64,000 bases of DNA from Caenorhabditis elegans (Eukaryota > Nematoda > Chromadorea > Rhabditida > Rhabditidae). The notes beneath the pieces are model-generated. The model was not told the DNA's origin and did not search any database. It was given only the letters and a program-made list of their open reading frames with translations. Made by a program: the position numbers and the translations under genes. Shown here one piece after another: positions 5,877 to 57,653 of the stretch; position 1 is the stretch's first letter, and every line of letters begins with the position of its first letter. The stretch is taken from contig NC_003284.9 of the NCBI RefSeq assembly GCF_000002985.6, positions 7,874,001 through 7,938,000 on the forward strand, written 5' to 3'.

Positions 5877-6069
5877 TGGGTGGCTGGTCACAAAAGTAAG
5901 TTGGTGGCTGGTCACAAAAGTAAGTTGGTGGCTGGTCACAAAAGTAAGTTGGTGGCTGGTCACAAAAGTAAGTTGGTGGCTGGTCACAAAAGTAAGTTGG
6001 TGGCTGGTCACAAAAGTAAGTTGGTGGCTGGTCACAAAAGTAAGTTGGTGGCTGGTCACAAAAGTAAGA
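5877..6069. repeat. Perfect 24-bp tandem repeat, about 8 copies
   Basis: A 24-bp unit beginning TGGCTGGTCACAAAAGTAAG starts at 5881 and repeats every 24 bases to about 6068 with no mismatch between complete copies. Because 24 is a multiple of three, several frames stay open on both strands; these are artefacts, not genes. Each copy contains AAAGTAAGTT, a near-perfect C. elegans 5' splice-site sequence. The array lies just downstream of the stop codon of the minus-strand DUF4440-like gene. Confidence 0.95.
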
Positions 6070-10368: not shown

Positions 10369-13300
10369 ATGCCCAAGGCTATTGTACAAGGACTGACTCC
10401 AGATGGAGAAAAAAAGAAAGCTCGAGTGTATACAGATGGATGGTAAAGCACAATATTGTTTTTAAGCGTTAAGCGTTAAAATTGAAAACTTTCAGCTTTG
10501 ACTTTGTACATTTTGCAAATGCCAGATTATTATGGCCAGCAAAACAATACGGAAAAAAGCTGATTGTTGGTATTCATTCAGATGACGAGGTATATGTGTT
10601 TTTTGTTATAACAATCAATTATCATTTCATTTCTCTACATTTCAAATATATCAAAACTTGTGTATGTATATTGTTTTTTAGCTTGACAATAATGGAATTT
10701 TACCAATTTTCACCGATGAGGAAAGATACAGACTTATTTCGGCAATTCGATGGGTCGATGAAGTATTTATTTATTTAAAAATCAAATTTTCTACATATTA
10801 TTCTTTAGGCATTTGAAGACGCGCCATTTCAACCCGAGATGTCAACGCTAAACCAGCTAGATTGTGATATTATTGCAATACCAGGCAAGTTGGTTAGATC
10901 ATAAACTCAGAGACCCCAGATGTTGAGCCATCTGGTGTCAACTACCCACTTTTCCAGATATTAGCCACCTGACAACTGTTGAAACTGCAAGGTACGAGGA
11001 GATTCGGGGCAGCGAACGGGCAAAACAATATGTAATTTCGGAGCATGTAACGGACCAGGTACGTGCTTGATAAACAAGTTAAGCACATTAAACGCAATTT
11101 ATTGAGTAGTCTAAAATGTTGGCAATTCTCCTGGAAGGAAAAATGTAACAAGATATTATATTTTTCGTAGATGTCTCTAGGATGAATAGGTGTACTACAC
11201 CTTCAATATACGATTTCAGTACTTGCGAACATATATGTTTTTATTAACAGGATTATAAATTATTTTAGTTATTGAGAAATTGTTTGAAACATCTTCTACA
11301 GTAATTTTCAATAGTTGCTTGACAGTGTTCTTACGTCTAAGTAATTTCAACCTTTCATTTTAATAAAACCTTATCTGTATCATTTGTATAATGAAGGAAA
11401 TCGCTGGTCGTCTCATGCTTGTCACAAAAAAGCATCACATGGAAACCGATTCAATCTTGGATTTCAAAAGCGCTATTCTTCCGTTTGCCCTGGTAAGTTA
11501 TACTTCAGTTGCTTATGACAAAACACATGTTGCAGGATCCGTTGAGCAACGAGCCTGTCATATCGGTGTCCCTTTTCAAACAAAACTATACGTTTGCACC
11601 TGTCGTCATCGGAAGGAAACCGAAAGTAACAGACAAGGTGAGCTGGAGGGTTTTTAGAATAAAAAATCGCGTAAAATTATGAATAGTTGTCAAAAATTTC
11701 GAATTAAAAAAATAGGTTTCATATCAAAAAAAAAACTAGATACGGGTCCAAACATGCAATTATGTGAAAAATGAATTTGTCTCAAAACGTGAATACCCAT
11801 GTCGTAAAAATTAAAATTAGTCCAGCAAAAATTGCTCCTTTTATAAAAATTGTCTGATACTTTTTCAATTTCTTTATACTTATTTTAAAACAAACTTGCC
11901 GGAAATGATGTCCACTTTCAAACAATAAATGAAATGTTTATGAAATTGATTAAACATAACATGAAATCTTCCATTTACAAATTTTTCAAATTGCCTGTGA
12001 AATCCACATGAATCACTATCGTCATGCATCTGGTTTTCAAAAAAATATCCCTTATAAATTCCGGAACATTAAAGTATTTTTTTAATACACGGTTTCAAGC
12101 TGACTCCCCAAGCTTCACGTTATCTAAAAATATTCATAGCTATGAGAGGCTACTGACGCAAGTCGTTCAAAGTTAATTTATTATTTGCATCCTCATAATT
12201 TATAACTTGCACTACTTTCAAGTTGTTCGTAATTCTCAAGAGTACTTGAGCTTTCCTGAAAATATGACAAAGTGGTATTTTCCATGATATGTCATTACTC
12301 ATTTCTGAAATCACGTTTTTTCTTTTAAATTGAACAGGTGAAAATTGAAATCAATACCGTATGACTAGTGTTTCGAACAATCATTCCTCGAACAATCATT
12401 CCTGGAAAACGACACATTGTCTTCGCACAAAATACAATTAGAATTTCAGGTTGTTTATGTTAGCGGAGCGTTCGATTTATTTCATGCGGGGCACCTGTCT
12501 TTTTTGGAAGCAGCGAAAGATCTTGGAGACTATCTGATTGTTGGAATTGTGGGAGATGATGTAAGATTGTAGATGATCTTTGAAGTTGCAAATAAAAATT
12601 TATTTTCAGGACGTAAATGAAGAAAAAGGAACAATTTTCCCGGTTATGAACCTTCTCGAAAGAACACTGAACATATCATCACTGAAAGTAAGGAGCGAAT
12701 TTTGAAATAGTGAACGTTTTAAGATAACTGTTTCAGATTGTTGATGAAGTATTTGTTGGTGTTCCGGCAGTGACAAATTCCAAGTTTGTGAATTTGATTC
12801 GAGCATCGGTTTGGTTTTGAATTTGTTAAAAAATATAACGCTGAGCAGCTCAAATTAAACAAAATGTTCTCAAATTAAAATAAAAGGACACAGATTCACG
12901 GAAAGAATCAAATTTAAAGTAGTGACTGGTGCCAAATAAGCAAATAACGTAGTAAACTTTACCAACCTTTTTTGACAATTGTTTATTTTGTTCAAATAAG
13001 TGGTAATACAGTTTATGCCAGTTTGTTTAGAAAAAATCCTTCAAACGTCATCATGTTTTGGAAATAAAAGAATTCAATTTCGGACTCCAGGTTGTCATTT
13101 TATTTCACTGTATTTTTTCAGAAAATCGCAGTGTACTCTGAAACCCACCCACGGCGGTTTGCAGACTGCACGTATCATAGAATTATAGAAGAAGTAACAC
13201 CAGATTATGATGCAACATGTGAAGAAATACTGGAGCGAATCACGTCCAGAAAGTAATTTCATTCTTCAATTTTGCATTTTTTATACCCTTTTGAACATTT

Positions 13301-13379
13301 TTCATTCAGGATTGCATCATCGGATGACGACGAAATCGCAATGTTCAACGCAGTTCCATTGAATAACAACCAACATTGA
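10369..13379 (+). CDS. pcyt-2.2: Ethanolamine-phosphate cytidylyltransferase-like protein
   Basis: Twelve exons join in frame: 10369-10442, 10496-10589, 10682-10762, 10809-10884, 10958-11058, 11397-11492, 11536-11637, 12450-12560, 12610-12687, 12737-12808, 13122-13252 and 13310-13379, giving 361 residues (human PCYT2 is about 389). Two nucleotidyltransferase halves are visible. The enzyme family makes CDP-ethanolamine from CTP and phosphoethanolamine in the Kennedy pathway. The second half keeps GAFDLFHAGH (HAGH at residues 220-223). In the first half the expected HYGH is HFAN (residues 30-33), and the RTxGVSTT segment near residue 135 is replaced by YVISEHVTD. The second half also lacks the usual terminal CHGK-type motif. 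Intron 4 has a GC donor. The exon 6 acceptor (ATGAAG) is weak. The symbol is from memory of C. elegans naming; activity may be reduced or lost. Confidence 0.9.
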
Positions 13380-13469: not shown

Positions 13470-15236
13470 GCATCTTTTGATCTTTTGATTAATTTTTGTT
13501 TTGAACCGTTCTGCAATAATGATGTGTGTTTTTGTTGTAACGTTTTGGATGACGAAAAATAGAGAGAAAAACGGAAGCAATTGAAACAAGTCTTGAATTT
13601 CAATTGTCAGAGGGCACTTTGTCATTTGAAACAAAATATCAAGACTGCCCATGTGTTTGGTGGGTGAGGGCAACGATAGCACCGTTGTCGGTACGAACCT
13701 CATTTGAATTCCAGGCATTCTAGCACGTTGCAGTTTTTTCGAAAAAGGAGAAGAAACGTTTTTTAAAGAGTTTCTTGATGTTTCAAGTTTGCAAAATTCT
13801 AAATTGAAATATCACATATTTTCTAAAACTTGTTATACAAGATTTCAAACTGGCTTAAATTTTAGTGAAAGCATACGAGGAAAGAACAACAAAAACTCCA
13901 TTGGAAAATAGCCCAGAAGGAGGCGGAGCCTATTATTGATTTTCCTTACACCACTTTTTATTTCATTCTCAACATCGTGTATTTAAACTAAAATTACCGT
14001 ATTTATCCGTCGTTGTCTGACTTTGTGAAAAACGTGTAATAGTAATATGTAGACCATTTTCAACTGTTTCAAATAATTCTGAAAACTGTTTCTGAAAGTT
14101 GGGGAACAAACAACACTATCGAGTTCAACTCCATACCCAGTACACTGAGATTTTAAATAAACGTAATTTTTTGAATAGTATTATTTCAAAAAATAAAATA
14201 CGCACTGAAAAACAAAATCACTCGACTCAACCGAATAAGACATCATTGAAAAATCTTCAAAGAAATTACAAATAAGGTGCAACATTTTTTTTAATTGTCT
14301 CTATTTCTATGCAAACATTTCTCAGTATTAACCTTTACTCTTTCCGTGCAATTACGTTCTTCCCTATTTTTAGAAGCCTTGTTGTCTGGAACTTCGTGAC
14401 TTTTCCCTTATTGTTTTCCTCCTACGAGACCATATGACGAGTATGAATAAATTCTGCTTCGCTTTGTTCAATTTCAATTATCTCAATACACACAGTTAAT
14501 GAAATTTGCCCTTCCTTATCCCTTGTTTATCCTTTTCTAATATTGGGAAGAATGTGAAAAAAGTGTGTTTTAATTTTCGAAAGTTCAAAAGTTTCCAAAA
14601 AAAAAAAAGGTTCTTAAAGTCTAAATTAATTTGAAATCACAACTTATAAATCACAACTTATAAAGTGTCTCATATTTCAATGGAAATGTTAAATTTCTTA
14701 AAATAACTCGAACATGCGCCAACTCGACACCATTTATCTCTGGAATGAACAAAAACAATGTCGAGGCAGGTGTAACTTTTGTGACGAAATGAGGCGCAAG
14801 CCTTCCTTGCTTCGCCCCCTAGAATCCATCAATATGCGTCGGTTACCTTACTTCACCTGTTGCCAAATCCTTGATAAAGGCTCTCAAATTCATTCTTACA
14901 CCATTCTTTCTTTAACTTTTTTCAGAATTTTTAAATATTTTTTTGTGTCTTATTTTTCGATTTTTTTCAACGTGTTTCATGGGTGGAGCAACGTAACTTT
15001 TTTTTATAATTTGGTGGTCGTGTAGGCCGTATCTTAGAAACAAAAACAATAAACTCCGCCCCTTCAGGACCTTCATATGAGTAGAAGTCATCTTGTAGTG
15101 AAGTGTTCACTTTTCCAATTTTATCTTGTTTCTTTTCCAATAACTCAATTTCGTTATTATTTTTAAAGATCCAAACAATTTTTAATTAATTTTATAGAAA
15201 AACTGTCAGATTTCAGGTAAAGCAAGCGACATTTCA
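13470..15236. other. Intergenic gap
   Basis: No gene could be supported. The stretch contains poly-pyrimidine-rich segments and a doubled 15-base sequence (AATCACAACTTATAA) at about 14634-14663. The segment just before 15237, including TTTTATAGAAAAACTGTCAGATTTCAG, has an acceptor-like TTTCAG at 15210-15216 that may be an SL trans-splice site for the following gene. Confidence 0.4.
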
Positions 15237-15621
15237 ATGTTCGGTCTCAAGGAAACAATTTTCTTCTCTTTGGCAGTTTTGTGCTTTGTTGAGGCGGCGA
15301 AACGGAATGCTCAATGCGACCTGGTTTGTCAGAGAAAAATGACAATCGAATGTTGCGAATGCATCGGGTGTCATCAGGGAATGCGATTTGGAAAACGATC
15401 ACAGCCATTCAGCACTCCAGAACTTGAAGAAGCAGTTATCGGTTAGTAGTTTCAGCAAACTTTTTTTCAAAAAGTAAACATCTTTCCATTTGAGTTGTCT
15501 TTAAAAATTAATTGCAGCTGCCAATGAGTTGACTGGGATCGAACAAGCTATCGTCGAGCTGGAGCTCGAGCTTGCTGCCAGAGTCCCACCGCGTCGACTT
15601 CTCGAGAAGTACATTCACTGA
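15237..15621 (+). CDS. Secreted precursor with Cys-rich amidated GMRF peptide
   Basis: Two exons, 15237-15441 and 15518-15621, give 102 residues. Residues 1-20 (MFGLKETIFFSLAVLCFVEA) form a clear signal peptide. A dibasic KR at 22-23 is followed by a 28-residue segment (24-51) with six cysteines spaced C-x3-C-x7-C-C-x-C-x2-C. The segment ends GMRF at 48-51, then G52-K53-R54, the classic glycine amide donor plus dibasic cleavage site. The remainder (55-102) is acidic with leucine-rich helix-like repeats and no cysteine. This layout is that of a neuropeptide or peptide-hormone precursor acting outside the cell, probably with three disulfides and an amidated C-terminus. An internal RK at 33-34 could allow a further cut. 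It is neither a typical flp precursor nor an insulin; I do not recognise a named gene. Confidence 0.85.
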
Positions 15622-15658
15622 TTTCTTCTTTCCACTTCATGCCCTCCGCTCGCTTCTG

Positions 15659-15664
15659 AATAAA
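15659..15664 (+). terminator. Poly(A) signal of the peptide precursor gene
   Basis: AATAAA lies 37 bases after the stop codon at 15619-15621, which implies a very short 3' UTR. Confidence 0.75.
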
Positions 15665-15669
15665 TGCAT

Positions 15670-17258
15670 CTCTAGTAATGAATTATCTGTTTTTTCCCTC
15701 AAAATCCGAAAATTGTGATAGCTCCCCTGGCATAGACTTTATTCAAATAAAAATTTGAATACGTTAACAGATGTAAAGTGGGTGGTAATATTTACATAAT
15801 TATCTGCAAGAATGGGGATGCGTTGGAAGAGTGGACATGGAAATAAAAATATATCACATAAGACGGTGAGAATTGAGAATTAGTGTTTGTCAAAGTAAAG
15901 ATTTTAGAAGAAATCAATCAATCTGGTCTGGTTGAATGTGTTTTAAACGTTTTGAATTTTGCACAGTGATGGACAGTTTAAAACTTAGGACAGGACAGGT
16001 TGTCTAATAATGCATTTAAAAAAAAAAGATTTCAAGAACGAGTTTACCAAAAAGTGATTTCACCTAAAAGTGCCGATGAAATAACTTTCAGTTTCTTTTT
16101 TTGCATGAAAATTGTTTCTATAAAAAATATTACGTGAAACTGCTAAAAACTGTCAAATAGCGAATGATTGTAGGCAAAGAATATTTACGATTATCCACTA
16201 TTTCAAGACGTGTTAAGAGAAGAAAATTGATGAAACCTTTTGATATTTTTGGTAATACATTTTTAAAAGTTTTTTGACAGTGTTGTAAATAAATGGTTGC
16301 ATAAAATGTAAAATAAATAAATATTGATTTTTCGATTTTTTTTTTTGGCGATTTTTATAATTTTTTAATTTTTTTTTTGATTTTCAATTATTTTCAGATA
16401 GAGATTATTGACTAGAATTTGGAAAAACAAAGATCAGGGGAGGAGAAGTTTTTGACAAAATATATAATGACACAGGAAAACAGTCCGGAAAATTAAAAAC
16501 TAGAAGATTGAAGAATAATATAATTTGGAAATAAAAAATAGAGCACAAAATTAAAATAGTATTCCTCAAACTTAAAATTGTTTTTTTTACTGAATAATTA
16601 AGTAGTCGATAATCTTTCGAAGCTTGAATGTTCCAATTATTTAAGGTATGGCTGAAATACAGGTTTAATTTTTACATGTCATTGAATACTTTCTCCTTTT
16701 TCATTTGAGATATAATTCACAAAATCGCATACGACACCTGCTCATTCTTACACAATAAGCCTCTTATGTTCTCATGTGTAATCCCAGTTTAATCAGGTAA
16801 TTGCCTTTTGCGCACGTAACACGAATACATTAATACTTGGCTTAAACGCGGTCGAATTTTATTCCGGATGTCATTTGTTCGGCAGCCAAAACCACCTAAC
16901 ACGTCTATTGCCATGGTTATAGCCTTTCGAATACAGCTGTCACGGGGCACAGTGCTCTATTCTCAGTTCACATTTTTCCAGAACTCAAAATAAAGCTAGT
17001 TGTTGTAGTGAGAAAAAAACAGCTGATTTTGAATTTTCCTCACTATTTTTATTGGAATTATTAAAAGTGTATGAGAATGGTGTAACGAACCGACAGGTTT
17101 CAAATTTTCACTATTGAAAGATTCAGAAACCTCAGAGTTGACTTGTGGTCTATAGTAGATTAATTTAATTTCAAATAGTTCTAAATAGCCTACACATTTT
17201 TAAGAGTAAAGTATGGTCAGCAGTTGAAACCATTTTTATGGTTCTAAATGACCAAATA
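15670..17258. other. Intergenic gap
   Basis: AT-rich sequence with no gene seen. On the minus strand an AATAAA at 17048-17053 could terminate the following minus-strand gene. An alternative last exon of that gene could begin near 16652 after a TATTTCAG acceptor (minus strand) and would add only PYLK before a stop. Confidence 0.4.
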
Positions 17259-18391
17259 TCATAATACAATTTTTTTTGTCAAAAAAAGGTTAAAGCTGAG
17301 TTTGCGAGTAGCACATAAGAAATGTTTTCTGTAGTCAGATATCTTTTCAACTCTTACCCAGAACTCAGTGTTTCCACAGAGCTTGACACATTCCCTAGGA
17401 ATTCCAATATTGTTGAACTCCTGGTTAACTGGAACCATGTATGGCAATCCGGGGTACTGGATCATCAGTCTTGGAGCAGACGCCGTTCCATTTGGGTAGG
17501 GTGTTGGCACACCGTACTTCTGAGCTAGTTGATGAGCCATTTGAAACATGCAGCAATGTTTGTCAGTTTCCGGAGAGCTTTCCTTGGTCTCGTTTCCATG
17601 GTTACTCTTTTTGTGCAGTTCATCCCACTTTTTTGGAGATGACGACTTTCTTTTTCTCGATCCAGTGAGCTGAGCTGATGGATCCGGTTGAGTGGAAGAA
17701 ACCACTTCTGGTTGGGTAGAGTCTGGTTCCGGTACAGCTTGAGAAAGTGGAGTTCCATTAACGGCGTCTTGTGATGCTCCCAAAATTCCAGCCGCAACTG
17801 TGATGCCGGGAACATCACGAAATGCCAACTCCTAAAGAACAAGAAATTGTGTGTTGTAGATGTACCGCAAAACGGTTTTAATAGAACAGTTTGTGTAATA
17901 GTTATTCTTTAGTCTAAAAATACAATAGCATTCGCATTTCAATTAGTACTCTTACATATTTGATTAATCTGTAAAAAATTAAGTTTACATTAAAAATGAA
18001 CAGATGTTCAAAAAAAAAGCCAAAATATCAACAAAAAACAGTTCAGGTTTTGGGAAAAAAACTACTTGCTATTATATGTAAATGTTTCAGAACCCGAAAA
18101 ACTAATATGTTTAGCTCAATCAAATATTTCTTCACGTTTTGACATTAATGGGACTATTGGGACAGTTACAGAAAAGATAGGCTGTAAAAGTATTTCTCGA
18201 GAGATATTTTTGATGCGATACTAAAAAGGTGCAAAACTAATAACGACACTTTACTAATAGAGCAAATCCGGTAATTGTGTCGTACCCTGATAACTTACCA
18301 TAAGTTCTGTGACGTATGGTGCCATGATATTTGGAACAAAATATCCCATTACCGCTTGTCCGCAAGGAATCTCAACTTCTTTCTCAGTCAT
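17259..18391 (-). CDS. Unrecognised protein with nuclear-localisation-like stretch
   Basis: Two exons, 18391-18299 and 17831-17259, give 221 residues. The start ATG sits three bases after a TTTTCAG acceptor (exon from 18394), so SL trans-splicing there would give an immediate start. Upstream coding exons cannot be excluded. The N-terminal 60 residues (MTEKEVEIPCGQAVMGYFVP, then ELAFRDVPGITVAAGILG) look folded. The middle is Ser/Pro/Gln/Thr-rich with a basic SRKRKSSSPKK cluster resembling a nuclear localisation signal. A later HQLAQKYGVPTPYP and a PGLPYMVPV segment follow. A GTAAGA donor in the last exon (after GNTEFW) suggests the final 30 or so codons may really be intron. I do not recognise the family. 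The codon pattern and intron phase support a real gene. Confidence 0.7.
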
Positions 18392-21220: not shown

Positions 21221-21283
21221 AACATTCAAAACATTTCTTATTATGGCTTTTTTTGAGGAAAACTTCATATTTTAAGGTTTTAT

Positions 21284-21372
21284 CGTTCCTGCTCGTTCAA
21301 CGTTACCAGCCCTCGTTCCTGCTCGTTCCACGTTACCAGCCCTCGTTCCTGCTCGTTCCACGTTACCAGCCC
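21284..21372. repeat. 30-bp tandem repeat, about 3 copies
   Basis: A 30-bp unit beginning CGTTCCTGCTCGTTCCACGT and continuing TACCAGCCCT repeats three times with one base change (CAACG for CACG context) in the first copy. The frame stays open but no gene is implied. Confidence 0.85.
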
Positions 21373-21513: not shown

Positions 21514-21668
21514 TTTCGTCTGCCGAAAAATAGAGTGGCAGACGAAAAATATATTGGCAGACGACAAAATAGATTGACAGACGAAAAATATATTGGCAGA
21601 CGAAAAATAGATTGACAGACGAAAAATAGATTGACAGACGAAACATATATTGGCAGACGAAAAATATA
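21514..21668. repeat. About 19-bp minisatellite, 8 or so copies
   Basis: Units of the form AGACGAAAAATATATTGGC and AGACGAAAAATAGATTGAC alternate through the stretch. Changes cluster in the second half of the unit, giving two unit types. The hydrophobic Phe/Cys-rich open frames on the minus strand here are by-products of the repeat. Confidence 0.85.
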
Positions 21669-34021: not shown

Positions 34022-37000
34022 TTAATATGACTTATACGCAGAACTTGTAGTTGGGGCCACATATGAAGCTGTAGTAGTTGTGGTTGCATCTTGTGCTTCA
34101 GTGGTTGTCTCGTACGGTTTGTGAGTAGTGGTGGTTGGAGTCTCTACATCGCGAGAGGGAGTTGTTGCTGGTTCTTCATACTGTGTAGCGGTGGTGGTAT
34201 ATGCAGCTTTGTAGAGAACCTTTCCAGTAGTCGTTGTTTGAGGTTGATACGGGGCTGCAGTCGTGGTTGGAGCTGGCTGCTCAAATCTTTTGGTGGTGTA
34301 AGTTGTGTAACTAGATGTGACTTCAGCAACTGGAGGTATGTAATCATTGCCACAGTCCTTATTGGTGCTCTTATAATTACAAGTTTGCGTGTCCCCATTG
34401 TACACCAATGGAGCAATACAAGTTCCAGACTGAAAAGCATATATTATTTTTGAATGTATATATTTTAATAAACTCACAAAGGCTCTTCCGTTGTCACAGA
34501 CAATGTAATGTGGGGAGCACATTTTGAGGTGGTGGAGTCCGTTAGATCTGATCGTGCAGAAATCACTTGGCACTCTGAAAGTAAATGTTTCATCAGAGCA
34601 GTAACATGACAAAATCTTACGCTGGAGGTGTTCTGTCTAGAGTGGTTGCAATTGAGCATTCCTTTGCGTCAATTGGGAATACACACTTTTCGGATTCCTT
34701 GGAGAATTTGAGACTGTTCGGGCAGCTCATCTAAAAAATTTTGCGAAATACTGAACAACATTAATCGGAACATACCTTACGAATCTGTTCATCAATGCAG
34801 GAAAAGTAATATGAGGAGCACCCAGCAGAGTAATAACCATCTGATTTTCCAAAACAAGCATTCGAATCGATTATGTCAGATCCTTTGCCGCTAAAATTAT
34901 TAAAATGAAAGTTGAAAGTTCTTTAAAAAACTAAGTTCATTAGGTACGATTACATTAATCCACCACATCAAATTCAGTACTCCGATATGCTTACATTTTG
35001 CATGTATCCACGGTGTGTTTGTAAGCACACATTCCATTCTTTTCGTTGTAAAAAAGTCCGGGGGCACATGAGGAAATAAGTGAACGACCTGCAATTAATA
35101 ATTGCTTACTTTCAGATAACTTGTGATTTTGCACAGTCTAACCTTGCATGCATTGAACGTAGTCTTGTGAGCAGTACGGAAGAGCATAGATTCCATCAGG
35201 ACGTCCGGAGCAGGAGAACGCCTTTGCCAACGGTGTGGTGTCTACTGGTCCTGGAGTTGTGGAGGTGTAATCAATGTTTGGGTAGTTGTAAGTTGTATAT
35301 TTTGTCGTGCCTGGTTGCTCTGCTGCTGGTGTTGTAGAAGGAGTTGGCTTGTATTCTGGGCAATCTTCGACATGCTCCTTGTAGTCACATCGATTGTTCA
35401 ATTTGCTGTAAAACAATCCTGCGGGGCAACGATTAATTGTAGTCTCAAAGTTGTTGCACGAGATGTAATAGTCCTCACAATCAAGACCGTAGTTTCCATT
35501 TTCGAGTCTTTCACAGAAAGCAGCATGCTGTGGCGATGGAGTGGTCACGGATGGATTGTACGCTTTGGTGGTGCTTTGAGAGTATCCATAGTTTTGATAT
35601 GAAATGACTGGTTGCTCGGCAGCTGGTGTTGCGTCTGTAGTTGGTTTGTACTCTGGACATCCCTCCACATTTTCCTTCACGTCACATTTATCTTGTAGAC
35701 GACTGTAGTACAATCCTGACGGGCAAGGGAACTTGAATGTTTTACGATTGTAGCATTTGATCAAGTATTTTTCGCAGTCAAATCCATAGTTTCCATCATC
35801 ACGTTTTGCACACATTGCAGCGTATTTTGGGGATAGAGTTGTTGTGAAGATTGTTGATGTGTATTGTGGTGCGTACCCTGGAGTAACCGGAGTATATTCA
35901 ATTGGAGCATATCCTTGGGTGGTACTTGGTTGTTCATATGGTTTGCTGGTAGTTTTAGGGTAGGAGTATGATGGAGTGGTGGTTGGTTGGTACCCTTGAC
36001 AATCTCGGACATTCGTACTGTAATCACATTCTCCGACATATGGATTGAAGATCAGATTTGCTGGACATGTAGTTGCAACGACTTGTCCGTTTGCGCAAAT
36101 GTAGAATACGCTCTTGCAGAGACCAGAGGCATGGTTTCCATCAGCGAGGTGTTTGCAGGAAAAGCTGGAAAGTATAATTATAACTGGAACACTTTTGACA
36201 AAAATGTTGTAAGCTCTTAGGGGGAATTTTTGTTTGAAATAGATTAAAATGGTTTCCGCTGCTTAACCTAAAACATTAATTGAAAAACCTTTAAAAAAAT
36301 TTTCCTTGAAATTATACAATATACTTCTTACTTTTAAATTGGATAAAATTCGTAATTGAACAATATCTCAAATTTTTTGCCGCTTTTTTAAATCAGATTT
36401 CAGCTATTTGCATAATCTCAGATAGTCTCAAATTATTTGAAAAAAATAAACTAGAACATTAAAAATAACACAGCTGTGTCTTTACACATTAGAAGTTTTC
36501 CAACTAAAGGAACGCAATTTTTGTCGGAAACTGTCTGATTGAGAAAATTTCTAAAAACTTTCATTCAGTTTCCAAGATGTTTGTTAAATTTCAAATACCT
36601 CCAATAGCATTTTTGTGACAGACACTGTCATTGAAGATATTTTATGAATCTAATTCCTTGAAAAAACTGGAAAAAGTTAGATGTCTATTTCAGGAACTCC
36701 CAATTGAGTAAAATTGAGTAAAAATTGAGTAAAAAAAAGCTGCTAAAATTTTTATAGTGATCTAGTCCAAAGAGGGAGTTTTTTCCTTGAAATTAAAAAA
36801 CTCACTCGTCCAAAGCAATTGTAGTTGTGACTGGAGCCTGAGTAGTGTATGTAGCTTTTGGTTGTTCATATCCAACAGTGGTCGGAGCCTTGGTGTAAAT
36901 TGGACGTCCGTAAATCGTTGATGGCCGTTCAGTGTCTCTTGGTGGCTGTGTGTACGGCTTTGTTGCTGGTTGTTCAGTGGTTGTGTACACTACGGACGAC

Positions 37001-39930
37001 GAGTATCCAATTGTAGTAGTTGGAGTGTCTTCACCTTTGTAAATTTGAGATGGTTCCATGTAGTTTCTGAAATTTTGATTTTATAACTTTTCAAACAATT
37101 TGAGATTGGTACTTTTCACAGTTTTCAGCAAAATCACAGGTGCCAGTAGCTTTGTTAAAGACTAGATCGCCAGGACAGTCATTCGCAAAAGCTCTTCCAT
37201 CGTGACAAGTGAAGAAGCTTTTGGTGCATGCTTCCTTGATGTACTTTCCGTTTGGTTTTCCGGTACAGTCAAAGTCTACTTTCACTTCAGCTGGTCTCTC
37301 GTTATAGGCTCCTCCGTGATTGTAAAGAACAGGTACATCTTCTGGTTTTCGTGGCTCTCTAAATTTTGTTTTTAGATTTGACTTATTTATATCATATTTA
37401 TGAGAAGATTATTACGAAAGTAAATCAACTTCCGATTCAGATTTTTTCTTGAGTAAACCTTATGACAGGGAAACTGACAAAAACTCCAAACCTATACAGT
37501 AACAAATTTCAATTTGAAATGAATATTCAACTTACAGACAAATTGCTGCGAATTCGCAAGCTGACACTCTTGTGTCGAATACAAGATTATCCGCGCATTG
37601 AATAACCCGACCAACTCCGTTGTCACAACTCAAAAATGATGCGTGGCACTCTTTGATTCCAAAGATTCCGTCTCTATTTTTGCAATCTCCGTGTACTGCT
37701 GGATTGTATCTGACTGTTGAAGAGAAGACAGGTGAAGGTGTAGCTTCAGTTGGAACATATGGGGCAGCAGTTGGATTTTGTGGTGGTGGATTTGGTGGAG
37801 CTGCTGATGTCGAGCGTGGGACGTAGGTTGTTCTTGGTGGGGAATAGACTGGCGCGGAAGCTGGAGCATATGGGGTTGGATCCACTGGAGCTTCAGCAAT
37901 TGACCCATAAGAAGAAGAAGAAGTAGTGGTTTTTGGTGCTCTATACGAAGTTTCGGAGCTGAAATAAATTACCCAAAAGTAAGTTTTGTTAAGTTTTCTT
38001 CATTTACACAACAAATTTGATCAACTCACCCGTTATATTCTGGACAATCTTTCACAGACTCTGGAAAGTCACACAGGTTTTGGTCCAAAACGTAGATTAG
38101 CTTTTCTGGACAAGTTTTTCTGAACAGCTTTCCATTCGAACACTGCCAGAAATATGGGGAACACTTCACGTTATCAGTGAAATGCATGTCTCCAGTAACT
38201 TTACAGTCCAATCCTTAAATAAACATTTTTAATGATAATAATACTAGTAAGGCCGAACCATTGTGCCCATTTTCAAATTCTTTGGTAGTGACGATGTAGT
38301 TATCCGAATCATATGTTGGTGAAGCATAGGCAGCAGCTGCTTGATCTTTAACTCCTCCAGAAGCATTACAGTTGGTGTGGTAATCGCATCGCTTGAGAAT
38401 TGGAACGTATACTTGCTGGTATGGACACCTTCAAATTGATTATGTGTTTTCTTTAATAAGTTTTCTGCACTTGAAACTAACTTTCTCATGTAAGATATTC
38501 CATTTGCACACTGATAATAGTTTTCATTACACACAGTCTTGTCCAGTGCATAATCCCCACTAAGTCTGCCCACACAATTTATCGAACTGAAATTTTTCAA
38601 TTAAAATATTTCAGAAAAAATAATTTTCCAATAAAACTCACACGGCCTTTTGGCGGACATTGAGTGTTACACGATCACCTGTGGCACAGAGATGGTTGCT
38701 AGAACGACGCTCACAACGTGCTAATAAGCGGTCAAAATAAAGACCCTCTGGGCATGACTGCTCATATTCAACATTCTGAAAATTATATAAAAAATTTTAA
38801 TTAAATTCAGATTTATGGTTTAAACATTCCCTTACAATAGTTTTCCATTACTTTGAAGTGGTCTCAAAAGAAATAAGAAAAGAAAATAAATATTTGTTTC
38901 ATTAAAAAATGGTATCAGCTAGAGATGCGTATGGGTCGTAATGGGTCGACTCGCCTATTTCACAGTTATTCTTTTTTTTCTCACAATGGCTCGCTTTTTG
39001 TCGCTTTTTTTTCATTTTCAAAGTATCATGAAAATTTTCGAGCTAAAAAAATTTGGTATTATCTTTAAAATTCGAAAATTTGAATTGCAAATTTTTATGA
39101 CTGTTCTATTGCAAAATATGTGACGTGAAAGGTACAAATATTGCAAATCGTTATAGTATATTTTTTAAAGATGTAAGTTGAAAAATTTAATGTCTGACTT
39201 TGGCATGAAATAGTATTTTTTCGATAAAATAATGAAAATAATGATCCCTCCAAAAAATTTAGCTGCCCCGATCCAGGTTCAGCAAAGTTATGACGTTTTG
39301 AAAGTGACTAAAACACCTTTTTACAAAATTTCAAAATTTTCAAAAAAAAAACATTTTTTTCTAAAAAGAGGAAAAAATGTTTGCAAGTTGTTTTAGCTCA
39401 CAACTCTCAAGAAAACCCACAAACTAATCTACCAGAAAAAGTACTTTTTGGAATTTTGCTCAAGGTATGTGGTTTTTTGTCCGTGGTGAGAAAAAACGTG
39501 TATGATATATGCTTTTCACTGTTTTGGATAAGTTAAAACAGTTTTTATCGATTTTCAGAAAACAATTTTTTTTTTTGAAATTTTAAAAGTTTTTTTTTTG
39601 GTAGGTCAAGAAATTTTTTCGGCACTTTCAAAACATCATAACTTTGCTAAACCTGGACCGGGGCAGCTAAATTTTTTGGAGGGATCATTATTATCACTCT
39701 TTTATCGAAAAAATACTATGTCATGCCAAAGTCAGACATTAAGTTTATCGACTTCCCTTGTAAAGCTCCAAAAGAAAACTCACGTTGACACACTGAAGAT
39801 ACTTTGAGCTGCAACCAACAGCATAAAGCCCGTCACCATCCGGGCATGGTGGTCCTTTCGGGTTCAGAACATTTTTGGCGTCCGCCGAGATGAGGATGAC
39901 AGCCGCCGCAAATATTGAAAGCTGTCGCAT
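34022..39930 (-). CDS. Secreted protein with eleven chitin-binding type-2 domains
   Basis: Fourteen exons join in frame: 39930-39784, 38775-38642, 38586-38482, 38428-38259, 38213-38030, 37958-37536, 37358-37113, 37066-36806, 36164-35143, 35088-34995, 34890-34776, 34730-34621, 34574-34478 and 34429-34022, giving 1171 residues. Residues 1-18 (MRQLSIFAAAVILISADA) are a signal peptide. Eleven six-cysteine peritrophin-A/CBM14 domains follow, starting near residues 29, 95, 187, 339, 414, 558, 676, 778, 881, 938 and 1008. Each has a C-x-G-x-Y start, a CxNG-type core and a final Cys pair. Linkers are Thr/Pro/Tyr-rich and suit O-glycosylation; the last 100 residues are such a linker. These proteins cross-link chitin in extracellular matrices such as eggshell, pharyngeal cuticle or gut lining. 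I recall the C. elegans locus name C39D10.7. Domains 7 and 8 are close duplicates. The exon 4 acceptor (TTTGAAG) is weak. Confidence 0.93.
39170..39765. repeat. Long inverted repeat inside intron 1
   Basis: The left arm (about 39187-39305) starts TTTAATGTCTGACTTTGGCA and includes GATCCCTCCAAAAAATTTAG, CTGCCCCG and GCAAAGTTATGACGTTTTGA. The right arm (about 39622-39745) is its reverse complement with roughly one change per ten bases. The arms lie about 320 bp apart inside the 1-kb first intron of the chitin-binding gene. This is a non-autonomous mobile-element relic. Transcribed, it would fold into a long hairpin. Confidence 0.85.
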
Positions 39931-51468: not shown

Positions 51469-52353
51469 ATGTTCGCTATTGCCCTTCTCTCATTTTTAGT
51501 TGTCCTTATCAATGCACATCCTCCAATGCATGCGGAAGTAAGTTGAGAGTCCCGATTTTATTTTATTGTTTGATTCCAGCAATTTAATATCTAAATTAAA
51601 TTATTTTCAGATGCACTCAGCTGTTGTTACTCTAGCTAATGAGATAGATACAAACTATCTCACCTCGCCAGCAAAGATAAAAATCGTGGCGCCATTGGAA
51701 AGCGCGCTGATTCCTGGAGGAGAAACATATCAATTGCGATGTGATATAATGTCCACTCCTGCTGCTACCATTCATTGGAAGTTCAATGGAAAGTTGATCC
51801 AGGGAAGTAATGAATTGAATGTCGAAGAGAAGTTGCTGAACTTTGGAAAAGCAATTGTTGACACTGGAATTGTTGCCTCCATACTCACCATCCAGTGCCC
51901 ATCAGCTGAAAACTCAGGAACATACAGTTGTGTCGGATACAATGGACATCAAACAATAGAAACGGTTGCCGAAGTCGAAATTGGTATGTTGTATAAAACC
52001 TGAAGTAATTTGGATAAATATTTAATTTTTCAGAAGGAGAAGCTTCGGGGTGTAGATCAAATCACAAATCCGCACCTGAAATTGTTTTCTGGACTGATTC
52101 TCGTTTTGAGATGACTGGAAACGTGGCCACCCTTGTCTGCCGCGCAAATCAGCAAGTCGACTGGGTATGGATGTCCAACGATGAGCTTGTAAAGAACAAT
52201 GACAAGTTCACGGTTCTTTCAAATGGAGATCTCGTTATCAAAAACATTGTATGGGACGATATGGGAACATATACTTGTATAGCAAGAAACCAATTTGGAG
52301 AAGCTCGCCAAGAAACATTCCTTTACCCAACCGCGAAAAAATCTTCTTTCTAA
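51469..52353 (+). CDS. zig-4: Secreted two-immunoglobulin-domain protein ZIG-4
   Basis: Three exons, 51469-51537, 51611-51983 and 52034-52353, give 253 residues. Residues 1-17 (MFAIALLSFLVVLINAH) are a signal peptide. The two Ig domains show the Cys-Trp-Cys signature: C67-W79-C130 (LRCDIMS, IHWKFNG, GTYSCVGY) and C183-W191-C228 (ATLVCRA, VDWVW, GTYTCIARN). There is no transmembrane segment or GPI signal, so it is secreted. From the literature, zig genes are small secreted Ig proteins made by PVT and other neurons that keep ventral-cord axons in position after development. zig-3 lies 4.4 kb downstream in the same orientation with identical sizes for exons 2 and 3. The symbol is recalled from the protein sequence. 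Confidence 0.95.
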
Positions 52354-56796: not shown

Positions 56797-57653
56797 ATGC
56801 TGCTCATCTGCATATCTGTCCTTGCTGCAATTTCAGCTCATCCATTGTCATCAGGAGAGGTAAGTCAAAACCATCTGATTAATTAAAAATCATTCACTTT
56901 TCCAGATGCGTGCAGCAGTCTCAAATTTGGTTCGAGAAATCGACTCCACTCATCTAACTACTAAACCATCCCTGAAAATAATTGAAGGTCTTGAAGACAA
57001 CACAGTTAGCACTGGCGAGAGCGTAACTCTTCGATGTGACGTACTGTCCACACCGACTGGAGTCATTTACTGGGAAAAGGATGGCCAACGAATCCAGGGA
57101 GATAAAGAGCTTAATGTTTTTGAAAAAGTATTGAACGCTATGGGTCCTACAGTCGAGTCAGGTATCATCACCAGTAGCTACCAAATCCCATGCGCAAATC
57201 TCCATCATATTGGATCCTATAAGTGTGTAGCCACAAATGGGCACGATACCGTCGAAAGCTCTGCAAAAATCTCAGTTGGTTAGTTGAATATAATTTCTAT
57301 TAAAACATTCTTAACTTAAAAATTTTCTTGCAGAAGGACAAACTGTTAAGTGTAAATCAACGCGCCGCTCAGCCCCAGTAATCACAATGTCTACTGAATC
57401 CCGATTTGAACTTCAAGACAATGCAGCTACTCTTATCTGCCGTGCTGATCGTAGAGCCAATTGGAATTGGATGTTCGAAGACAAGAAAATAGATTTTGAC
57501 AGCGGCCGATATGAACTACTTCCATCCGGTGATCTTCTCATCCGGAAAATCCAGTGGTCAGACATGGGTTCATACTTTTGCATTGCTCATAACAAGTATG
57601 GAGAGTCCCGTGGTGAAACCTTCTTGTATCCCACCAAAAAACATATTGCTTAA
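56797..57653 (+). CDS. zig-3: Secreted two-immunoglobulin-domain protein ZIG-3
   Basis: Three exons, 56797-56859, 56906-57278 and 57334-57653, give 251 residues. Residues 1-14 (MLLICISVLAAISA) form the signal peptide. The Ig signatures are C65-W77-C128 (LRCDVLS, IYWEKDG, GSYKCVA) and C181-W189-C226 (ATLICRA, ANWNW, GSYFCIA). Exons 2 and 3 are 373 and 320 bases, exactly as in zig-4, and the proteins align without gaps after exon 1, so the pair arose by tandem duplication. Like its neighbour it lacks any membrane anchor and should act outside the cell. From published genetics zig-3 and zig-4 both contribute to maintaining ventral-cord axon position. Confidence 0.95.

Follow-up and report, generated by a model that had tools for sequence, protein, structure and literature searches.

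What does the small gene at 15237-15621 on the plus strand encode? Its predicted product carries six closely spaced cysteines between a dibasic KR pair and a GMRF-G-KR motif, which raises the question of whether a single Caenorhabditis elegans peptide could bear both a disulfide-bonded body and an amidated RF terminus. We studied this locus within the window, that is, the whole stretch of 64,000 nucleotides that was analyzed. The reading that we favor, with a probability of roughly two in three, is that of a neuropeptide gene for which no paralog was detected. Its product would be cut at KR, amidated through Gly52, and braced by at most three disulfides, and it would act on a GPCR in the manner of an RFamide neuropeptide.

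Gene Structure and Coding Evidence

The splice model, derived from the window sequence, gives a complete two-exon gene (15237-15621) for a precursor of 102 residues; all its features given below lie on the plus strand. Exon 1 (15237-15441) encodes the signal peptide, a KR pair, the Cys-rich segment, GKR, and the start of the tail. It is followed by a phase-1 GT..AG intron of 76 bp (15442-15517) and by exon 2 (15518-15621), which encodes the remaining tail and ends with the TGA at 15619-15621. Of the three frames of exon 2, only the one set by the splice is open, and an unspliced reading runs into a stop one codon beyond the final whole codon of exon 1. Upstream, a TTTCAG (15211-15216) that may function as a trans-splice (SL) acceptor is found 20 nt 5' of the ATG, with no intervening ATG. 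On the other side, a candidate polyadenylation signal, AATAAA (15659-15664), lies 38 nt past the stop.

The composition follows the same boundaries, with GC fractions of 0.449 in exon 1 and 0.548 in exon 2 versus 0.263 in the intron and 0.335 in the window. Of the 99 codons scored, 43 are optimal codons (0.43), against a background in the flanking DNA with a mean of 0.25, a standard deviation of 0.053, and a maximum of 0.394 (942 overlapping pseudo-windows). The share is higher in exon 2 (20/33) than in exon 1 (23/65). The phase of the splice, the GC content of the exons, and the choice of codons all support 15237-15621 as a real gene.

Precursor Anatomy

Residues 1-21 (15237-15299) form a signal peptide as judged by hydropathy and the -3/-1 rule, with the top 11-residue hydropathy (2.95) reached at residues 8-18; cleavage is likely after A20 or A21 (VEA/A or VEAA/K). 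The dibasic KR follows at residues 22-23 (15300-15305). The predicted mature peptide (residues 24-51, 15306-15389) reads NAQCDLVCQRKMTIECCECIGCHQGMRF, with six Cys in the spacing C-x3-C-x7-CC-x-C-x2-C and a GMRF end. In the precursor as a whole, Cys is found at positions 16 (inside the signal peptide), 27, 31, 39, 40, 42, and 45. Next come the putative amidation donor Gly52 and the dibasic K53-R54 (15390-15398), and then a C-terminal tail of 48 residues that starts at Ser55, has its exon 1 portion at 15399-15441, and contains one RR (94-95). The KR at 22-23 lies where signal peptidase is likely to cut and is for that reason weaker evidence for a convertase than the GKR. Amidated and closed by three disulfides, residues 24-51 have a computed monoisotopic mass of 3211.32 Da, corresponding to an [M+4H]4+ ion at 803.84.

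On retranslation, the coordinates, letters, Cys spacing, KR at 22-23, and GMRF-G-KR given in the first-pass annotation all proved correct. Its view of the product as an RF peptide that is secreted, rich in Cys, and probably amidated holds as well.

A single-sequence AlphaFold model of the precursor reached a mean pLDDT of 49.8 and a pTM of 0.21. Its residues 21-50 score 39-42, which makes the model uninformative on Cys pairing. The best-predicted part is a helix in the tail (residues 61-90, pLDDT 67-70). One could ask whether the 48-residue C-terminal segment is the functional part, leaving the Cys-rich part as a pro-region. The tail is encoded mostly by exon 2, with its stronger codon bias, and combines the best-modelled region with its own RR. 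However, the helix comes from a low-confidence model, the tail has neither a Pfam family nor a paralog in its own genome (see below), and six Cys set between KR and GKR are more specific than a spacer would be. We thus find a functional tail very unlikely and continue with residues 24-51 as the predicted neuropeptide.

Within this segment, the longest of the inter-Cys loops holds another basic pair, R33-K34, which could split the peptide, to judge from its letters. The outcome would be a MTIECCECIGCHQGMRF-amide of 17 residues with four Cys (computed mass with two disulfides, 1954.74 Da) or a somewhat insulin-like peptide of two chains held together by disulfides. The place of the pair in the longest loop suits such a cut, Table 2 of PMC4196577 lists 10 sites where RK flanks an FLP, and a 17-mer would fit the FLP range of 5-24 residues. 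RK is nevertheless a minor cleavage site, and dividing the Cys two and four would require inter-chain bonds or separate pairings. Cleavage adjacent to a disulfide Cys is unusual for the common convertases (PMC4237046), a rule that is not decisive here, because the cut would fall three residues past Cys31. All in all, we regard a second cut as unlikely, and an undivided 28-residue neuropeptide remains the reading that we pursue.

Comparison with the FLP Family

FLPs are defined by a C-terminal Arg-Phe-NH2, encoded as Arg-Phe-Gly between basic residues, among which the pair KR is used most often (108 sites in Table 2 of PMC4196577). Precursors of 66-184 residues give rise to peptides of 5-24 residues, and two small exons make up the simplest flp genes (PMC4196577). 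The GMRF-G-KR and the upstream KR agree with this definition, amidation being predicted from the sequence, and so support the reading that we favor. The 102-residue precursor lies inside the size range and has a signal peptide by hydropathy and the -3/-1 rule. The predicted peptide, on the other hand, is 28 residues long and would shrink to 17 only through a cut at RK 33-34; that it exceeds the 5-24 residues of the listed FLPs counts against the reading that we favor. The gene thus resembles those of FLP precursors in its signal peptide, KR flanks, RFG before a dibasic site, and small two-exon layout, but differs from them in the length of its predicted peptide and in the presence of six Cys.

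In the accessible text of PMC4196577, the 15 named peptides of single-FLP genes include none with Cys and none with a GMRF end. The string GMRF is absent from that text as well, Table 1 of the review aside. The first-pass annotation had set the peptide apart from the flp products as short and Cys-free molecules. That separation is justified by length and Cys content and not by definition, since the published FLP definition, with its RFG between basic flanks (PMC4196577), applies to this precursor as well.

Comparison with Cys-Rich Peptide Families

Cys-rich peptides that are amidated are already known from several families. ITPa has six Cys and is amidated, and nematode members of the ITP/CHH family have been reported (PMC12611267). 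ITPa counts 73 residues versus 28 here, a size outside that of the family, and no Pfam family, ITP/CHH included, matched at E<=10, a search in which the HMMER filters discard most weak matches. The CCWamide/agatoxin-like peptides have eight Cys, an amidated aromatic C-terminus, and a short precursor (PMC8557429). The peptide described here is similarly Cys-rich and ends in an aromatic residue (F51-G52-KR), with amidation predicted. In the agatoxin-like precursors, the mature peptide is C-terminal and encoded in the last exon, with an intron inside the preceding basic codon, whereas here it lies wholly in exon 1, is followed by a tail, and the phase-1 intron interrupts that tail. We therefore rejected membership of this family on three counts: six instead of eight Cys, the position in the precursor, and the position of the intron. 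Finally, ambulacrarian orexin-type peptides have six Cys and are amidated, with a dibasic site following (the ArOXP1 precursor has 112 residues), and allatotropin-type peptides and their receptors have apparently been lost in nematodes (PMC4772807). The likeness to the orexins is one of layout only, namely six Cys, predicted amidation, and a dibasic site.

These examples bear on the claim, made at first sight of the sequence, that disulfides together with an RF-amide terminus are unusual, and show it to be overstated in one respect. Disulfides combined with amidation are found in ITPa, the CCWamide/agatoxin-like peptides, and the ambulacrarian orexins, precedents that speak for the reading that we favor. 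The RFamide tail on a six-Cys head is the unusual feature that remains.

Fly trissin has six Cys in a peptide of about 28 residues, spaced C-x2-C-x3-C-x3-C-x7-CC, and it is not known to be RF-amidated. The peptide predicted here shares with it the number of Cys, a similar length, and the core C-x3-C-x7-CC. The other two Cys precede the core in trissin and follow it here, and the full trissin spacing is absent. Because these Cys lie on opposite sides of the core and trissin is not known to be amidated, we do not claim membership. The first-pass annotation granted a trissin likeness in general layout only; the shared core takes it slightly further. The passages of the trissin literature covered here name no nematode trissin. 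Nor did the insulin profile match (no Pfam family at E<=10, in a search that is weak for short divergent peptides).

The order C-C-CC-C-C is also that of inhibitor cystine knots, in which Cys I pairs with IV, II with V, and III with VI. The order is present here, and the AlphaFold model has a pLDDT of only 39-42 over residues 21-50. This order, with its six Cys packed into 19 residues, and the CIGCH motif, which is similar to the heme/metal motif CxxCH, would suit a secreted Cys-rich effector with an antimicrobial, channel-acting, or metal-binding role instead of a GPCR ligand. Against such a role, loops 4 and 5, of one and two residues, are very short for a cystine knot, the cytochromes matched in the PDB (see below) are not significant, and the combination of a convertase site, an amidation site, and an RF terminus indicates signalling. 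The peptide is also not strongly cationic, because residues 24-51 contain as many acidic as Lys/Arg side chains (three each). An effector is in our opinion quite unlikely, and a neuropeptide is still the reading to which the processing sites point.

Search for Relatives

Searched against its own genome (100,286,401 bases, seven contigs), the precursor matched only its own exons, whether taken whole or as the mature part or the tail alone. No Pfam family matched the precursor at E<=10, a threshold at which the HMMER filters discard most weak matches, and the region 14500-16500 had no Rfam match at gathering scores. Viral contigs yielded four pattern stretches and prokaryote genome contigs 73 stretches, none of which was confirmed as a relative. 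Among PDB sequences at E<=10, the whole precursor matched two cytochromes (E 3.5 and 7.3) and the mature part one (E 7.6). Since these matches are not significant, we rejected kinship with cytochromes; they probably arise because CIGCH resembles CxxCH.

In the main text of the open-access literature, we found no paper with a GMRFamide neuropeptide or with letter strings of the precursor. The passages covered in papers on nlp genes, trissin, agatoxin-like peptides, and other Cys-rich peptide hormones did not show the peptide either. The window covers 7,874,001-7,938,000 of a contig taken to be the X chromosome, and the peptide gene occupies 7,889,237-7,889,621. The X-linked nlp genes include nlp-53, nlp-57, nlp-61, and nlp-76 (PMC10077061). 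The genes nlp-64, nlp-66, and nlp-67 are X-linked as well (PMC10077061) but allatostatin-C-like (PMC8764417). The peptide gene may be known already under the name of an X-linked nlp gene.

Rarity of the Layout

How often would such a layout occur by chance? As controls, we used 150 random windows generated by a third-order Markov model (9.6 Mb) and 20 grid-chosen stretches of 10 kb from elsewhere in the genome (200 kb). The six frames of the window contain the exact six-Cys spacing a single time; none of the Markov windows and none of the genomic stretches has it. The same counts (one, 0/150, and 0/20) were obtained for a looser layout consisting of a dibasic site, at least six Cys, and a Gly-dibasic site, whereas its four-Cys form is found in two of the 20 genomic stretches. 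Open windows of 20 residues with at least six Cys, counted with overlap, number 50 in the 200 kb of genomic control and eight in the 64-kb window. Cys density alone is thus common in the genome; what is rare is its combination with processing sites. As the layout was chosen after its sighting, these counts show how rare it is but do not amount to a clean test.

The searches and counts also bear on whether the locus is a chance open frame or a decayed gene. For this speaks the lack of any relative in the Pfam, PDB, viral, and prokaryote searches. Yet start, splice sites, phase, and stop are intact, composition and codon bias are those of coding DNA, and the layout is missing from all the random windows and genomic stretches. 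Chance or decay is to us scarcely credible beside a functional neuropeptide gene.

Genomic Surroundings

A same-strand gene upstream spans 10370-13379 (limits set by eye), and its two tested exons match a cytidylyltransferase-like Pfam family; we take it to be probably an ethanolamine-phosphate cytidylyltransferase. Because the ATG of the peptide gene lies about 1.86 kb past the upstream stop (13379), an own promoter is probable and an operon disfavored. Downstream, an open frame of 190 residues runs on the minus strand (17259-17831); no Pfam family matched it at E<=0.01.

Farther along, minus-strand frames at 35141-37408 encode CBM_14 chitin-binding domains and Thr/Pro-rich stretches, a locus at 35-37 kb that we assume to be C39D10.7. 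Two pairs of Ig-domain exons of like layout, about 5 kb apart (51542-52353 and 56879-57653), are presumably zig-3 and zig-4. These names of flanking genes would place the peptide gene on cosmid C39D10. In the papers examined under that cosmid name, C39D10.7 is named and the peptide gene is not.

The window also holds several tandem repeats. A perfect array at 5879-6068 (24-bp unit, 7.9 copies, 100% match) repeats VAGHKSKL in frame. Two near-perfect minisatellites lie close together, one at 21283-21372 (30-bp unit, 98% matches) and one at 21524-21666 (57- or 19-bp unit, 93 or 88% matches). Around the peptide gene itself, the repeats comprise three direct families and eight inverted pairs, which are AT-rich and chance-like.

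Proposed Function and Significance

The favored reading, a neuropeptide gene, suggests the following course. The signal peptide, observed as a hydrophobic segment and presumably cleaved, would take the precursor into the secretory pathway, where an EGL-3-type convertase could cut at the observed K53-R54 site. The mature N-terminus would be fixed at or near the KR at 22-23, a site likewise present in the precursor. An EGL-21-type carboxypeptidase would then strip the KR, and an amidating enzyme would convert Gly52, yielding a 28-residue peptide with a -GMRF-NH2 end and up to three disulfides. After release from dense-core vesicles, the exposed RF-amide tail may serve as the message that engages an RFamide-type GPCR, and the disulfide-bound head may provide stability and receptor selectivity. 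The 48-residue tail of the precursor would be a spacer or a sorting propeptide.

Going one step further, we tentatively propose, at less than even odds, a hybrid class of neuropeptides in which a disulfide-knit head is joined to the RF-amide message of the FLPs, addressing RFamide or orphan GPCRs with a selectivity set by the head. If such a class exists, FLP and NLP libraries, made up of short linear peptides, could have missed its Cys-rich RFamides. Should the gene turn out to be an already annotated nlp gene, the value of the finding would be smaller and lie mainly in a ligand that needs folding and amidation before assay.

If made as predicted, the peptide would unite the design of the short linear RFamides with that of the Cys-rich peptide hormones, two designs that are usually separate. 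Some peptide GPCRs of C. elegans are still orphan (PMC7615469), and the peptide would be a candidate ligand for them. RFamide receptors such as DMSR-1 and DMSR-7 have been reported to be promiscuous, and a peptide of this kind would test whether a folded head narrows that promiscuity.
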